From the NCBI RefSeq assembly GCF_002214585.1, contig NZ_CP014862.1, positions 558,001-622,000 of the forward strand: DNA of 64,000 nucleotides. The letters are read 5' to 3'. Shown piece after piece: positions 6,477 to 13,189 of this stretch (positions are counted from its first letter, which is position 1; each line of letters opens with the position of its first letter). The translations under genes and the position numbers were made by a program. The notes below the pieces were generated by a model. The model saw nothing but the letters and a program-made list of their open reading frames with translations, was not told where the DNA came from and made no database searches. The DNA is from Thermococcus profundus. GTDB lineage: Archaea; Methanobacteriota_B; Thermococci; Thermococcales; Thermococcaceae.

Positions 6477-7805
6477 GTGGTTGCCGTGGATGTTCTCGAA
6501 CTTCTCTCCAGGTTAGTGGCATTTGAGACTGTGAACGACCCAGAGAGGGGAATAAAGCCCTCCAAGGACTGTCCCGCCTTCATAAGAGACACGCTTGCCT
6601 CGTGGGGGATAGAGAGCGAGATAATAGAGCGCGACGGCTACTACGCGGTTTACGGGGGGGATAGGGGAAGGAAAGCCAAAGCTACTCTTCATGGCCCACT
6701 TCGACGTAGTGCCCGTAAACATGGAAGAGTGGGAGACCGACCCGTTCAAGCTCACAATCAAGGGGAACCGAGCCTACGGTAGGGGCAGCGCCGACGACAA
6801 GGGCAACGTTGCTTCAATAATGCTCGCACTGAAGGAGCTCTCGGAGGAGAAGCTCGATGGGAAGGTTCTATTTGCATTCACGGGCAATGAAGAGATCGGC
6901 GGCAGGATGGCCATGCACATCGCTGAAAAGCTCGCTCAGGAGGGCAATCTTCCAGGGTACCTGGTGAACGCCGACGGAACCGGGATGAAACCGATAATTA
7001 GGAGAAGGAAGGGCTTTGGAGTTACTATTCGCGTCCCTTCCGAAAAAACGAAAGTCAAGGGCACCGTAAGGAGAGAAACCTTTAGGATAAGAACGCCGGT
7101 GCTGGAGACGAGGCATTCTGCTTATTTCCTCTCCGGCGTTGATACTCACCCGCTCATAGCAGCCTCGCACTTCCTCAGGGGCAGAGAAGCGTTTGCCGTT
7201 TCTCTCGAGGGAAAGTTCCTCAAGGGCAACGTCGTGCCGAGCGAGGTGACCCTTACCTACGTGATCCCCGGTGAGGGCGAAGAGATGGAGGTTGACCTCG
7301 GCCTCACGGGGCTCCTCAGGGCGGTAGTGCCATTCGTGAGGGCTCCGATAAAAGCGGAGAAGTACAGTGATTACGGCATCTCGATCACACCCAACCTGTA
7401 CTTTATCGAAAATGGAAAGCATGTTCTAAAGTTCGACGTGAGGGCGATGAGCCGCTCGAAGGACGAGATTGAGCGGGCGATGAAGGAAGTGGTTGAGTTC
7501 AACCTTCCCGGGGCGGAAGTCAAAGTTGCCACCAACGAAAAGGCGGGATACCTCTTCACCCACCCGGAGGAGAAGATCGTCAAGATAACGCTGGAAGTTC
7601 TTGAGGAGCTCGGCGAGAAGGTGGAGCCTGCTGAGGGGCCTGGGCATCGGATTCAAGGTTCTTCACTCCCCATGGTGTAAAAGCCATAGACTTCGGCCCG
7701 CGGGGATGGAACATCCACGGCCCGAACGAGTACGTTGAGATAGACTCGCTCCAAAAGATGCCAGCGCTTTACGCGGAAGTGGCGAGGAGACTGGTGAAGG
7801 GATAG
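6477..7805 (+). pseudogene. M20 family metallopeptidase/deacylase (ArgE/DapE type), two frameshifts
   Basis: Three segments in different frames together spell one M20 peptidase of about 440 residues. Segment 1 (6477 to about 6660) ends in a run of seven G; the next frame continues with KLLFMAHFDVVPV, the first zinc histidine motif, then GRGSADDKGN and FTGNEEIGG, the metal and catalytic residues. Near 7640, around GAGGGGCC, the frame shifts again, and the last segment reads ASDSRFFTPHGV...FGPRGWNIHGPNEYV to a stop at 7805. Each break is one base in or beside a G-rich tract, so this is either a decaying gene or assembly error. The GTG at 6486 is an alternative start; a TATA-like TTAAATACC at 6446 suggests a nearly leaderless mRNA. 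Confidence 0.85.
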
Positions 7806-7815
7806 TTGGAGATGC

Positions 7816-8618
7816 TTATCTCTCGGCAACCAACCATCCCACAGGTGGATGCTTGGCTCCCTTTTTCCACTTTTTATAGGCCCTATTCCACCGCTCCAAA
7901 AGTTCAGCGCGTTTTTCCCTGTCTTTTATCCGTTCCACGTACTCTCGTGGAATGTAGGCGAGGTAGTGAGGAAGGTTGGGCTCAAAGACTCCGCTCTCGA
8001 TAATTTTCCCTCCGGCACGCTTTACAAATTCCTTCAGCTCTTCCATTGAGAAGTAGTGAAGGTCGTCCTTCTCACCGAAGAGAGCTTCAAATATCTCCTC
8101 CCTTAGATTGTATAAATCAAGGTGGGCCATCTGGCGCTCGTTGTTGGCTATCGGAAGGCTCTCTGCTATGAAGACCCTCTCGGAAACGCGGAGCATTTCG
8201 GAGATGACCTTGACGATGGTTTCTTCATTTTTCAGGCTTCTAACACCGTGGACGAGAACGGCCAGATCAAACGCCTTAAAGGGAAAGGGCAGTTCTCTTG
8301 CGTCAAGCTTCATGGGGATTACCCTGTGTTTCACTCCAGTTGCGGATGTTATTTCCTCGAAGAAGCGCCAGCGGGCTTTGTCTACGGCCACTACTCTGCC
8401 GGTTTCACCTACGAGGTAAGCGAGCGGAACGGTGGTTATCGCATGGGCACCACGCCGACTTCGAGAACGTTCATTCCTTCTTCCAGGGAAGAGAACCTGA
8501 GGACGCGAAAGCGTTCGAGCACCTCCTTATGAATCCAGTCTGGAGGTAAGGGTGGCTCGTTTCGGGGAGGAATTTTGGAAAGGACGTCTTTCTCAAACTT
8601 TTTCTCGATGGTGGGCAT
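7816..8618 (-). pseudogene. Class I SAM-dependent methyltransferase, one frameshift
   Basis: The N-terminal part (8618 to about 8445) ends in MNVLEVG, the start of SAM motif I. One base is missing where GCGAHAITTVPLAYLVG should follow; the remainder is in another frame, with VVAVDKARW (motif II), KLDARELPFPFKAFDLAVLVHG (motif III/IV region, here split for reading) and a C-terminal half typical of small-molecule or protein methyltransferases, ending WLVAER. Together the pieces make about 267 residues. The stop is 10 bases from the convergent M20 peptidase end. With the M20 gene this gives three single-base breaks in 2 kb, which suggests either local decay or sequence error. Substrate is unknown. 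Confidence 0.8.
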
Positions 8619-8748
8619 GGAGAACACCGGAGATGGCTAAAGTGCTTCCCTTTAAAGTGTTTTTGGAGAAAAGGTTTTATAATGTGGGGTTGAGTTTATG
8701 ACAGGCGAGAATTTTATATTTGAGAAAATTCCTTTACAAACTCTAGAA

Positions 8749-8772
8749 AACTTTTTAGTTGGTAACACCAAC
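8749..8772 (+). promoter_or_regulatory. Promoter and perfect palindrome upstream of the orphan gene
   Basis: AACTTTTTAG (8749-8758) is TATA-like and is followed at once by the perfect inverted repeat GTTGGT-AAC-ACCAAC (8758-8772), about 20 bases before the ATG. A protein bound there would cover the transcription start, so a repressor site is plausible. Another TATA-like element lies at 8708-8717. Confidence 0.45.
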
Positions 8773-8791
8773 CTGCTTATGGTGAAACAGG

Positions 8792-10276
8792 ATGTTACCT
8801 ATTAGCGAGTTGAAGCAAATTTTAGAGGGGGTTAAGAAGAACTCCAAAAATTCAATAGACTTATTCAGAGTCCCTCACACAGCCTGGGTAACTCATCCCG
8901 ATACCAAAATCTCATTAGAAATGCCTGTTCTTGTCGACTTCCCGAGGATCGCATACGAGACAATTGGAACTTTCATCATTAATTATGTCTCTGAGAAAAT
9001 TGAAGAAAGCGGGCTAAAAGAGGGATTACATAAGATTCTCGAGGAGAAAGAAGATTCCACTACACCAATTGGCTATGCAACCTCTGTATTACGGACGTTG
9101 GGCATTGAATGGGATGCGTATCCTTTGGGAGAAAAGTTGATACTAAGTGTTGACCCAGATGGATACTACAAAAATGTCTGGCCACATAAGATTCTAAGTT
9201 TTGTTAAACTGCTAAATGAGGGACAGGATTATCCGAGCAACATCTATGAAGTTGCCTCTATTCTGACACCTCAATTACCCCCAAGTGGCATTTCCACACC
9301 TTCAAAAGTTGCATTGCCTGCCATATTCTTTAATTTTGGCGCTACCACAGCCTTTAACGCGGTAATTGAATTGAATGCCCTTAAGAATGAGATACTTCAA
9401 CTATACAAGCTAACCATATCTATAGGTGAAACTCCCGAGGACTACGAGTGGCAGATAGCCACAAAGAATCACTTAATGAAAATATTTACAGACATGCTTA
9501 CCATTGTCCAGCATCTGGAGCTACTCTTAGAGTCCGGCCATTTTCACTCAGGATACTACCTAATGCGTTCACTCATAAGGGACTTGGGGGACGCTTTACT
9601 AACGGCCTCGCTCATTCAATACTATTCATTAATAGCTCCTAAGCTTGACGAAACCGCTCTAACAGAGGAAACAAAAGAAGATGCTGTTTGGAGTGGATTA
9701 ACTTATGTAAATGAGAATTTTATTGAAAAGTGGCTTAGGGTGTACTATGATAGTTATGGGAGGCCGTTTGTAGGAGAGGTTATTTTAGAAAATCCCGAAG
9801 AAGAATCAAAAGAATGGAAAATCAAGTCATTATCGGATCTTAGAGAGGAGTTCAAAAAAGACATATTTTACAAATTGTTTTCAACAGGTTTTATAGAAAG
9901 GAAAGCAAACAAGAAAGTCCAAAAATACTCCGTAGTCGGTTTTTCGGATAGGATTTGTTATGAGTCCGTGGACATGTTTATTAAGACAGGGAAATCCCCG
10001 ATAGATGTCGTTTTAGATGAGCATATTAAGTTGCCAACAAAAGCGAACCTTAAAGATACTTCCCAGTTTCCAGTTTCAAATGAGTATCACAAACTCAGTG
10101 ATGTAGTTCACAATCCGGTTTTAGTCGACTTTCCACCGTATAGTTCCACTATTGAATATCTTGGCTTTCTCCACCATTTGAAGATACTTAGAAAGATTTT
10201 TGATAATGTACTGAGGGCCTACTTAGAGAGACATAAGCGGGAAAGAAAGATTATGAGAAAAGAAGAGAAAAACTAA
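8792..10276 (+). CDS. Orphan AT-rich gene of unknown function
   Basis: A 494-residue protein with no recognised catalytic motif, signal peptide or clear membrane segment. Codons are rich in AAA, ATA and TTA, and the gene is visibly more AT-rich than everything around it, which suggests horizontal transfer. Two stretches recall the HEPN-like/DUF5677 style: ESGHFHSGYYLMRSLIRDLG (residues 247-266), similar to a helix pair ending in RSLxE/D, and YHKLSDVVHNP (432-442), like the YxxLSxxVH motif before a last helical pair. The C-terminus is strongly basic (KRERKIMRKEEKN). Its stop directly abuts the leuS stop. A stress or defence role is only a guess. Confidence 0.75.
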   Translation: MLPISELKQILEGVKKNSKNSIDLFRVPHTAWVTHPDTKISLEMPVLVDFPRIAYETIGTFIINYVSEKIEESGLKEGLHKILEEKEDSTTPIGYATSVLRTLGIEWDAYPLGEKLILSVDPDGYYKNVWPHKILSFVKLLNEGQDYPSNIYEVASILTPQLPPSGISTPSKVALPAIFFNFGATTAFNAVIELNALKNEILQLYKLTISIGETPEDYEWQIATKNHLMKIFTDMLTIVQHLELLLESGHFHSGYYLMRSLIRDLGDALLTASLIQYYSLIAPKLDETALTEETKEDAVWSGLTYVNENFIEKWLRVYYDSYGRPFVGEVILENPEEESKEWKIKSLSDLREEFKKDIFYKLFSTGFIERKANKKVQKYSVVGFSDRICYESVDMFIKTGKSPIDVVLDEHIKLPTKANLKDTSQFPVSNEYHKLSDVVHNPVLVDFPPYSSTIEYLGFLHHLKILRKIFDNVLRAYLERHKRERKIMRKEEKN

Positions 10277-13180
10277 TTACTCCACGAACACCGCAGGCTT
10301 CAGCGGCATGGCTTGCTTCTTCTTTCCTCCTTTGTCCTCCTCGGCGTTGATGACTATCTCGATGCCAAGTTCTTTCTCAATGAAGTCCTTGGCCTCCCTC
10401 AGCGCCTTCTCCTCGTTGATCCTCGTGACGTCAAAGGCTCTCTCCTTGATGAGTCTCTGTATCAGCTTGCTTACCTCCTTGCCGTGCTTCCTCATCTCTG
10501 GATCCTTCATCAGCTCTGACATAGCGGATTTGAAGTCCTTCTTTTCAGCAACAACCTCAACAACCTTCCACTTCCACTCCGGAGCGGTGTAGATGTATGC
10601 CCTCTTCGGGTTCTCTATCTTTGCAACGTTTATGATCTCCTTGATGTCCTCGATGAGGGACTTGACGAACTCCTCCTCTGCCTCAACGGTTTCGTTCCAC
10701 CACTCAGGAACCGGCTCGGGCCAGGGAGCGAGGCTCACGAAGCCCTCCCCGCCGAGCATCTCCCACAGCTCCTCGCTGATGTGCGGCGTGAACGGTGCCA
10801 TCAGCCTGACCCAGACGTCGGCGAGCTTTCTCAGGACGTAGCGCTTCGCCTCGTCGTCCCTCCCCTCGGTTCTCCTCATGTACCAGCGTAGATCGTTGAG
10901 AACTGTATAGAATGCCCACTGCACTGCTGTCCTCGTCCTGAACTCCTCAAGGGCCTTAGTTGCTCCATCAATGGCCTTGTTCAAACGGTGGAGCATCCAC
11001 CTGTCTATGTCCTTCAGCTCAACGCCTTCCTTGACATCGTAGGTTGCGAACTCGCTTATCAGCTCGTAGAAGCGCTCCACCTGCCTGCGGAGCTTTCCGA
11101 CTTCCTTCCTCTTCCAGTCGAAGTCGCTGTCGTGCTCGGCCAGTCCCATAATGTAGAGCCTGACAACATCCGCTCCGTTCTCCTCTATGGCATCAATGAA
11201 GTTCAGGACGTTGCCCTTGCTCTTGCTCATCTTCGTGCCTTCCAGCGTTCCGAAGCCGTTCACCGCTATTCCCTTGGGCCAGTGCTTCCTGTCGAAGATG
11301 GCAGTGTGGTTGAAGATGAAGAACGTCAGGTGGTTCGGTATGAGGTCTTTGGCGGAGCAGCGCCAGTCGAGCGGGTACCAGTACTCGAGCTCCTCCTTCA
11401 TCTCGTGGATAACCTCGGCAGGAATTCCGGTCTTCTCGCTCAGCCTCTTCTCCTTCTCCTTGTTGAACTCCTCCCTGAAGATGTAGTCGAAGAACTCCCT
11501 GTCAAGCTTCTCTGGGTCGAGCTTGCCCTCCTTCCTCAGCTGGTTCATGTGCCTGCTTATGGTGTAGTAAGCCATGTAGATGGTCGAGTCGCTCAGACTC
11601 TCGATTACCCAGTTCGGATCCCACGGGAGCGGCGTTCCAAGGCCGACCTTTCTGGCGCAGGCCTTCTTGTCGAGCCAGTCTATAACGGCTTCAAACTGTG
11701 CCCTCCTGCTCTCTGGATAGATGGTCATGTTCGCTAAAGCTTCCCTCGCCTTCTCCTTCCACTCTGGGTTTCCGTAGTCTATGAACCACTGGTCGTGGAT
11801 TATCTTGATGACCGCCTGGTTTCCGAACCTTGAGATGACCGGCTTTTCCGCGAACTCGTACATTATCTCTGCGATGCCCTTCTCCTGGAGCTCCTTCGCT
11901 ATCAGCTCCTTAGCCTCCTGGACAGGTTTGCCGGCATAGGGCTCAATCTTGAAAACTCCCTTGTGGTACTCGGCCTTGTAGATGTTCTTGGTCGCCTGCT
12001 CGAGCTTCTCAACATCCTTTTGGCTCTCAACACCGAGCTTCTCGGCCTCTTCGACAGCTGGGAACTCGCCGTAGCCTTCCAGCTTTATCAGCGAGATGTA
12101 GCTTATCTCCTCAACCACGCGCGGGTCGATGTCGTACTTGAGCAGAATCTCGGTCTCCTTCTTTAAGTCTTCAAGCGCTACATGGTCGAAGGGCGCGTGG
12201 GCAGGAACGCTCATAACAACTCCAGTTGCGTTGTCAGGGTCAACGAACTCCGCGGGTAGGATTATGACCTCGTCGCCGGTTACCGGGTTCTTGACGTACT
12301 TTCCGATGAGCCTCTCACCCTTGAACTTCTCAATGACCTCTATATCCCTGTCCTGGAAGGAGAGCTTGTAAGCGGCTTCCTTGCTGACGATCCAGGTCTC
12401 CTCTCTGTCGCCCTTCTTGACTTTGACCTTCACGTATGTGACTTCAGGGTTCAGCCACATGTTGGTGACGCCGTAGACAGTTTCGGGCCTCAGGGTGGCG
12501 GCCGGGAGATAGATTTCCTCGCCGTTTTCCTCGAGAACGAACTTGATTATGACGTATTCGAGTATCTGGACATCTTCACCCTCCATTATGTCGTGATCAC
12601 CAAGAGGAGTGCCAACGACCGGATCCCATCTGACCCTGTGCGCTCCCTTGACGACAAGACCCATATCCTTGAGCGTCCAGAACTGCCACTCTATGAACTT
12701 GCTGAAGGGCGGGAAGAGGTTTGTCGTGTGGAACTCGCGCGTCCAGTCAACGGAGAAGCCGGCCCTTATGAAGGTCTCCTTCGCTGCCTTCATGAAGTAC
12801 TTGACTATCTCCTTCGGATCCTCGAACTTCCAGAGGATGTCCTCGGGGACCTTGTAAACATCCCTGTAGATGTGGATGGTCTTGGGGTCGCGGTTCTTTA
12901 TCCTCTCGGCTATTCCGACTATCGGCGCGCCCGTGATGTGCCACGCCATCGGGAAGAGAACGTTGTAGCCCTGCATCCTCTTGAAGCGCGCTATAACGTC
13001 CGGTATCGTGTAGGTCCTCGCGTGGCCGACGTGGAGGTGGCCCGAAAGGTACGGGAACGCGACCGTTATGTAGAACTTCTTTTCCTTCGGCTTCGCGTTT
13101 CTGTCCGGCTCGAAAACCTTTTCCTCCATCCAGCGCTTCTGCCACTTCTCCTCAATCGCCTTGAAGTTGAGCTCAGCCAT
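10277..13180 (-). CDS. leuS: Leucyl-tRNA synthetase
   Basis: Charges tRNA-Leu with leucine. The 967-residue protein is the long archaeal/eukaryotic type of class Ia synthetase, with [16 protein letters not shown] near residue 45 (HIGH motif), an editing domain inserted in the Rossmann fold ([26 protein letters not shown]), [11 protein letters not shown] (KMSKS) near 650, the anticodon-binding helical domain, and a C-terminal extension. The ATG at 13180 lies eight bases after AAAGGAGG. Its stop touches the stop of the convergent orphan gene with no gap. The promoter lies far upstream, leaving a long leader. Confidence 0.97.
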
Positions 13181-13189
13181 GTCCAAAAC

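Follow-up and report, generated by a model that had tools for sequence, protein, structure and literature searches.

The systems closest to the locus described here are the uncharacterised DUF5677 family (PF18928), the HEPN superfamily of ribonucleases and toxins (PMC3710099), and the archaeal 'dark matter islands' (PMC4158269). With DUF5677, the 494-aa protein that is the subject of this work and its relatives seem to have in common a pair of helical motifs whose order is kept, LL-x2-G...R-S-L and then Y-x3-S-x3-H, and DUF5677 is patchy in archaea, too, with an occurrence in 11 of the 247 genomes of the phylum to which genome G202 (see below) belongs. Unlike DUF5677, the family has its own N-terminal domain with a V-D-F-P motif, an insert between the two motifs, and a P-x-S-S-x2-E motif in the tail, and, unlike DUF5677 proper, none of the 13 family members is matched by the DUF5677 model. 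The features shared with the HEPN superfamily are a predicted helical core, an invariant histidine near a predicted helix end, and the defence-related or mobile neighbourhood of the relatives (PMC3710099). In contrast to that superfamily, the family has no conserved arginine of the Rx4-6H motif and no match to a HEPN model, and a HEPN fold is putative here. The likeness to the dark matter islands concerns the locus: a narrowly spread, fast-evolving gene resides in a species-variable slot, and this slot also harbors clusters of secreted paralogues. In a text search of PMC4158269, tRNA synthetase and HEPN were found to be unmentioned; thus, the leuS slot and the 494-aa family seem not to be described there.

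An earlier note on this DNA of Thermococcus profundus had proposed that an AT-rich gene adjoining leuS, with a palindromic promoter of its own and HEPN-like motifs, may be a new single-gene stress or defence element. Here, we report the analysis of this gene, its relatives, and its genomic location. The window is the whole 64-kb stretch of DNA that was analysed, and genomes are designated by G numbers, G000 being the genome of the window.

Results

An intact gene with alien codon usage adjoins leuS

The gene starts with ATG, has an intact frame, and encodes 494 aa. Its stop codon directly adjoins that of leuS, as had been claimed, with leuS occupying the minus strand from the next nucleotide onward (Table 1). 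The composition was compared with that of 47 non-overlapping ORFs of at least 150 aa within the 64-kb window. The GC content of the gene is 0.391 and its GC3 is 0.405, versus means of 0.538 +/- 0.032 and 0.683 +/- 0.074, respectively, for the reference ORFs. Among the 47 window ORFs, the gene ranks last in codon-usage score. The AT-richness relative to the neighbours was thus confirmed. The earlier note was also correct in that the protein has no recognised domain, given that sequence searches of Pfam, PADLOC, NCBIfam, PHROGs, and PDB yielded no convincing match. The best PDB profile match, 7rdr ('circular tendon repeat protein', 2.5e-8), was dismissed as a repeat artefact, since no stretch in it passes alone. 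No PADLOC profile matched the window protein, and its relatives gave weak matches only, to PDC-M22A (E 0.0016) and Cas10 (E 0.0038), in one member each. A comparison with the orthologue in G031 resulted in a dS of 0.22 and a dN of 0.046, that is, a ratio of 0.21; the gene is under purifying selection.

The methyltransferase gene upstream is divergent and leuS is convergent, and, therefore, the 494-aa gene must have its own promoter. A possible archaeal TATA-like box, TTTTATAT, was read by eye upstream of the gene. The palindrome that the earlier note had described as part of the promoter, GTTGGTAACACCAAC, is present at that place; it occurs once in the window and in 0 of 100 shuffles, and the pattern GTTGGTN3ACCAAC has 2 sites in the 2.04-Mb genome. 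Its status as a defining part of the element was not supported: the G031 orthologue, at 90% identity, carries GTTGGTAACACTAAC, and in the remaining three Thermococcaceae orthologues no palindrome can be seen ahead of the gene, so that a role as a conserved operator was rejected. A 6-bp inverted repeat close to a start codon is fairly often expected by chance (0.1-0.2 by our estimate), and the palindrome is probably incidental or a lineage-specific operator. It includes a GTTn3AAC pattern, which we take to be a SurR-like site and which occurs 26 times in the window.

The methyltransferase gene (7816-8630) is split into ORFs of 191 aa and 63 aa in the window and is whole in G031 (284 aa) and G056 (271 aa), which indicates a frameshift, a pseudogene, or a sequencing error. 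A peptidase gene (6477-7680, M20-like by eye) is likewise split, into ORFs of 101 aa and 329 aa, whereas its relatives mostly have about 440-476 aa; it is probably a pseudogene.

Table 1. Positions of the gene, its conserved motifs, its upstream region, and leuS in the window
Feature	Position	Strand	Basis
Possible archaeal TATA-like box upstream of the gene	8712..8719	+	Candidate, read by eye
Inverted repeat GTTGGT-AAC-ACCAAC upstream of the start codon	8758..8772	.	One mismatch in G031; not visible in G067, G056, G073
Orphan gene of the accessory family, short subfamily	8792..10276	+	Intact ORF; codon-usage outlier; dN/dS 0.21 versus G031; homologues
Motif 1, RSLIRDLG, residues 259-266; core G249...Y255-x3-R259, predicted helix	9566..9589	+	Conservation; ungapped alignment with the DUF5677 motif
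Motif 2, YHKLSDVVHNP, residues 432-442; core Y432-x3-S436-x3-H440, then P449, S451, S452, E455	10085..10117	+	Alignment A8
leuS (leucyl-tRNA synthetase), conserved; 3' end borders the insertion slot	10277..13186	-	ORF; same border in all five Thermococcaceae occurrences

The gene is rare in Thermococcaceae and always resides next to leuS

In a tblastn-type search of 94 Thermococcaceae genomes, the gene was found in five: G000, G031, G067, G056, and G073. The identities to the window protein are 90% in G031, 54% in G067, 52% in G056, and 32% in G073, which represents another genus; in G056 the frame is broken into two pieces. Weak matches in G086, G087, and similar genomes (E ~0.01) were treated as chance. 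All five copies lie at the 3' end of leuS and are convergent to it. leuS itself was found in 86 of the 94 genomes, and, therefore, the absence of the gene is not the absence of the locus. In G028, the C-terminal domain of leuS is the most similar (95%), yet the gene is missing and other cargo is found at the same site.

The divergence of the gene differs from that of leuS. Between G000 and G031, leuS has a dS of 0.50 (ratio 0.085), while that of the gene is less than half as high, indicating that the gene copies parted more recently than leuS, unless recombination inflated the leuS value. The protein identities in G031 are 90% for the gene and 92% for leuS, and the corresponding values in G073 are 32% and 79%. 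As a separate observation, the leuS genes of G076 and G001 are about 90% identical to that of G000 despite different genera, possibly due to whole-gene transfer. Patchy presence, a variable site, and deviant composition characterize the 494-aa gene as a mobile accessory gene in a hotspot.

The leuS 3' end is a hypervariable insertion slot

For a survey of this site, 75 leuS loci (L007-L095) were oriented and the genes downstream of leuS were clustered. The first gene belongs to 32 different families and is convergent to leuS in 59 of the 75 loci, and idsA lies 0.7 to 9.4 kb away from leuS. At a nearby junction, idsA-c2, the gene after idsA is unchanged in 48 of 52 loci. The 3' end of leuS in Thermococcaceae is a hypervariable insertion slot. 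In G018 and G057, just 108 bp separate leuS from the methyltransferase start, which represents an empty site. Among the cargo are, in G041, a NACHT/NB-ARC-like (STAND) protein of 1510 aa that carries TPR repeats, in G086 a HEPN protein, and in G023 a PLD protein; much of the cargo looks, by eye, secreted or membrane-bound and not clearly defensive. The slot families c5 (~400 aa), c14 (~187 aa), c36, and c47 are recurrent paralogous secreted or membrane proteins, which resemble the Thermococcus-specific secreted arCOG clusters of PMC4158269 without a match of sequence or arCOG number.

A sequence of about 25-35 bp from the leuS end is repeated inside the slot before the next cargo in G037 (L066), G038 (L077), and G029 (L073), in these cases ahead of c14, and such a repeat is present in a displaced copy in G080 (L012). 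Longer leuS 3' fragments were found elsewhere in the chromosome in G080 (L012), G076 (L014), G077 (L016), G072 (L018), and G008 (L021), and several of the displaced fragments carry the same slot cargo (c14, c5). These repeats and fragments suggest that cargo was stacked, or moved together with leuS ends. Flanking leuS-end repeats that could represent integration scars were not found for the 494-aa gene, though they are present for other cargo. A 67-bp leuS repeat was also seen in G012, 0.75 kb downstream of leuS.

Several distant relatives reside in mobile and defence-related neighbourhoods

A profile of four orthologues detected relatives in other archaeal groups, in G337 and G202. The G337 relative is full length (480 aa) and convergent to an enolase gene at a distance of 6 bp, while the G202 relative (L099) is broken, with a degenerate middle. 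A wider profile revealed a second subfamily, with members in G451, G664, G535, G604, G718, G594, and G517 as well as on the haloarchaeal plasmids NZ_CP134950 and NC_006394 (Haloarcula pNG600, L112). Some members have a long N-terminal extension, and the pNG600 copy is annotated as two ORFs. This is a rare family, found so far in archaea alone. The broken frame in G056 (L010/L035), the degenerate middle in G202, and the two ORFs on pNG600 indicate that the gene decays in some hosts.

In G202, the relative adjoins a phage-type integrase, and AbiEii, GmrSD_N, and TrwB/HerA-like genes lie within the same 19 kb. In G451, the relative is followed after 54 bp by the start of a tyrosine recombinase that has a phage-integrase SAM-like domain, and in G604 the relative is found near an AAA_15/OLD-TOPRIM protein of 951 aa and an integrase-like ORF. 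The 951-aa protein (L123:1526-4381) combines a prenyltransferase-like alpha-alpha toroid, an AAA_15 ATPase, and an OLD-like TOPRIM domain, an unusual, defence-like architecture. Neighbour genes of ~98 aa and ~225 aa are common to G202 and G718, and the two haloarchaeal plasmids have a conserved gene block around the relative, with CBS and orc1/cdc6 among its genes. The 494-aa gene was not found to be accompanied by any known antitoxin, sensor, or partner. Such neighbourhoods are typical of both defence genes and mobile-element genes and do not separate the two roles.

The main rival to a defence or stress role is maintenance of mobile elements: the protein could serve the replication, partition, or integration of archaeal plasmids or islands and have been stranded at the leuS slot after decay of the element. 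The directly adjoining tyrosine recombinases in G202 and G451, the common neighbourhood on the two plasmids, and the shared small neighbours in G202 and G718 would all be expected for such a protein. However, in six genomes, that is, the five Thermococcaceae and G337, no recognised recombinase or replication gene directly adjoins the gene, and the frame is nevertheless intact in five of the six, with the dN/dS ratio indicating selection. In addition, the window protein had no match in collections of plasmids, phages, and viral contigs. Scans of viral contigs with the family detected no relatives, one scan returning a single 29-residue match, and the matches in phage collections were at chance level. 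We consider the maintenance role unlikely, although it is the best of the alternatives.

The conserved core and its possible relation to DUF5677 and HEPN proteins

Residue conservation was evaluated in an alignment of 13 members (A8). Besides M1, the residues Y255, Y432, H440, P449, S452, and E455 are invariant, and D49, P51, G249, R259, L274, S436, and S451 are nearly invariant. The residue positions that had been given for RSLIRDLG and YHKLSDVVHNP are right (Table 1), and the protein is predicted to be mostly helical. The short and the long subfamily have their cores in register, with an hhalign E of 8.4e-5 in the region of motif 1, and the two subfamilies are connected by three collinear hits, one at each of the two motifs and one at V-D-[FI]-P.

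DUF5677 members from archaeal genomes were aligned and the resulting profile was compared with the family (hhalign). The short subfamily reached a score of 30.9 (E 0.005) with DUF5677, whereas the maximum was 24.8 among 102 unrelated families and 19.3 among 100 column shuffles. In this alignment, motif 1 is ungapped and motif 2 comes second, so that the order is kept. The similarity was weaker for the whole family (24.6, E 0.048; maximum of 60 shuffles 20.1), and the long subfamily alone does not stand out (E 0.23). Even with a cutoff of E = 10, none of the 13 members was matched by the Pfam models for HEPN and DUF5677 (the PF18928 gathering score is 27.1 bits). AlphaFold models were unusable, with a pLDDT of 36 for one sequence and 43 for four sequences; at these values, the Foldseek search, which returned no match with E <= 0.001, is uninformative.

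An arginine at x6 spacing before H440 is present in 3 of 14 members (G718, G594, and G517). Position 433 varies between H, K, G, N, and R, with one of the first four in most members; thus, the family does not conserve the catalytic arginine of Rx4-6H. In the short subfamily, K434 is constant. From the HEPN/DUF5677 hint of the earlier note, what stands is that the short-subfamily profile ranks DUF5677 first of 103 families with collinear motifs; a Pfam match, a conserved Rx4-6H arginine, and a usable structure model could not be added to it. We regard the hint as a reasonable lead with one quantitative test behind it, not as membership, and the core of the family is a probable remote relative of the helical, HEPN-like proteins of the DUF5677 type.

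An active, metal-independent HEPN ribonuclease toxin that acts alone could explain the invariance of H440 in all 13 members of A8, the arginines of G718, G594, and G517, the constant K434, and the remote similarity to DUF5677, and some HEPN families do retain the histidine without the arginine (review, PMC3710099). Nevertheless, with a variable residue 433, no HEPN model match, and no antitoxin partner, such a toxin appears improbable.

Discussion

The reading that we favour, and to which we give about an even chance, is that of a horizontally acquired, selected, monocistronic accessory gene, which encodes a member of a rare archaeal family, namely an effector or sensor that acts as a single protein in defence or stress. 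What the earlier note had proposed as a new single-gene element is indeed a single accessory gene that moves horizontally: it is patchily present in the leuS hotspot, is intact and selected, has alien codon usage and a conserved core, and several of its relatives have recombinase or defence neighbours. A specific identity as a HEPN ribonuclease was not supported. For the protein, we infer a DUF5677/HEPN-like fold, some catalytic activity if there is any, and, from gene context, a role in defence.

A further alternative is that the gene is ancient in Thermococcaceae, was inherited vertically at leuS and lost in most lineages, and has a host function unrelated to conflict. This would accommodate the same place in all five occurrences and the similar G031 identities of the gene and leuS, and it is made quite improbable by the presence in only five genomes together with a relative of full length that belongs to another archaeal group, the discordant G073 identities, the dS below that of leuS, the alien codon usage, and the clean spacing between leuS and the methyltransferase gene in G018 and G057.

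For the favoured defence or stress effector, the following course of events can be envisaged. The family travels on integrative elements and plasmids, and the gene is lodged in the variable slot, with the stop codon of leuS on one side and the promoter of the conserved methyltransferase gene on the other. In the protein core, a helix with G-x5-Y-x3-R, followed by Y-x3-S-x3-H and then P-x-S-S-x2-E, may bring together the R, Y, S, H, and E residues in a functional site. Once triggered, the protein would most likely act through its Arg259/His440 region on RNA, nucleotides, or another cell component, and the outcome would be that the cell or an invader (virus, plasmid) is halted, or a stress response.

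A more specific version is put forward tentatively, as possible though doubtful: the protein would be an undescribed archaeal single-gene defence effector, a divergent DUF5677/HEPN-like branch that lacks the canonical catalytic arginine and uses a Y-x3-R / Y-x3-S-x3-H...P-x-S-S-x2-E centre instead, and that spreads between archaeal groups via integrative elements and via a leuS 3'-end hotspot in which cassettes are stacked with leuS-end repeats.

Taken together, our results delineate a hitherto uncatalogued family of archaeal proteins, which has a conserved core and a specific set of invariant residues. The leuS 3' end of Thermococcaceae is a hotspot that can be mined for more accessory and defence genes. 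Should the link to DUF5677/HEPN-like proteins be true, the family would offer a first approach to the function of DUF5677-type proteins in archaea.
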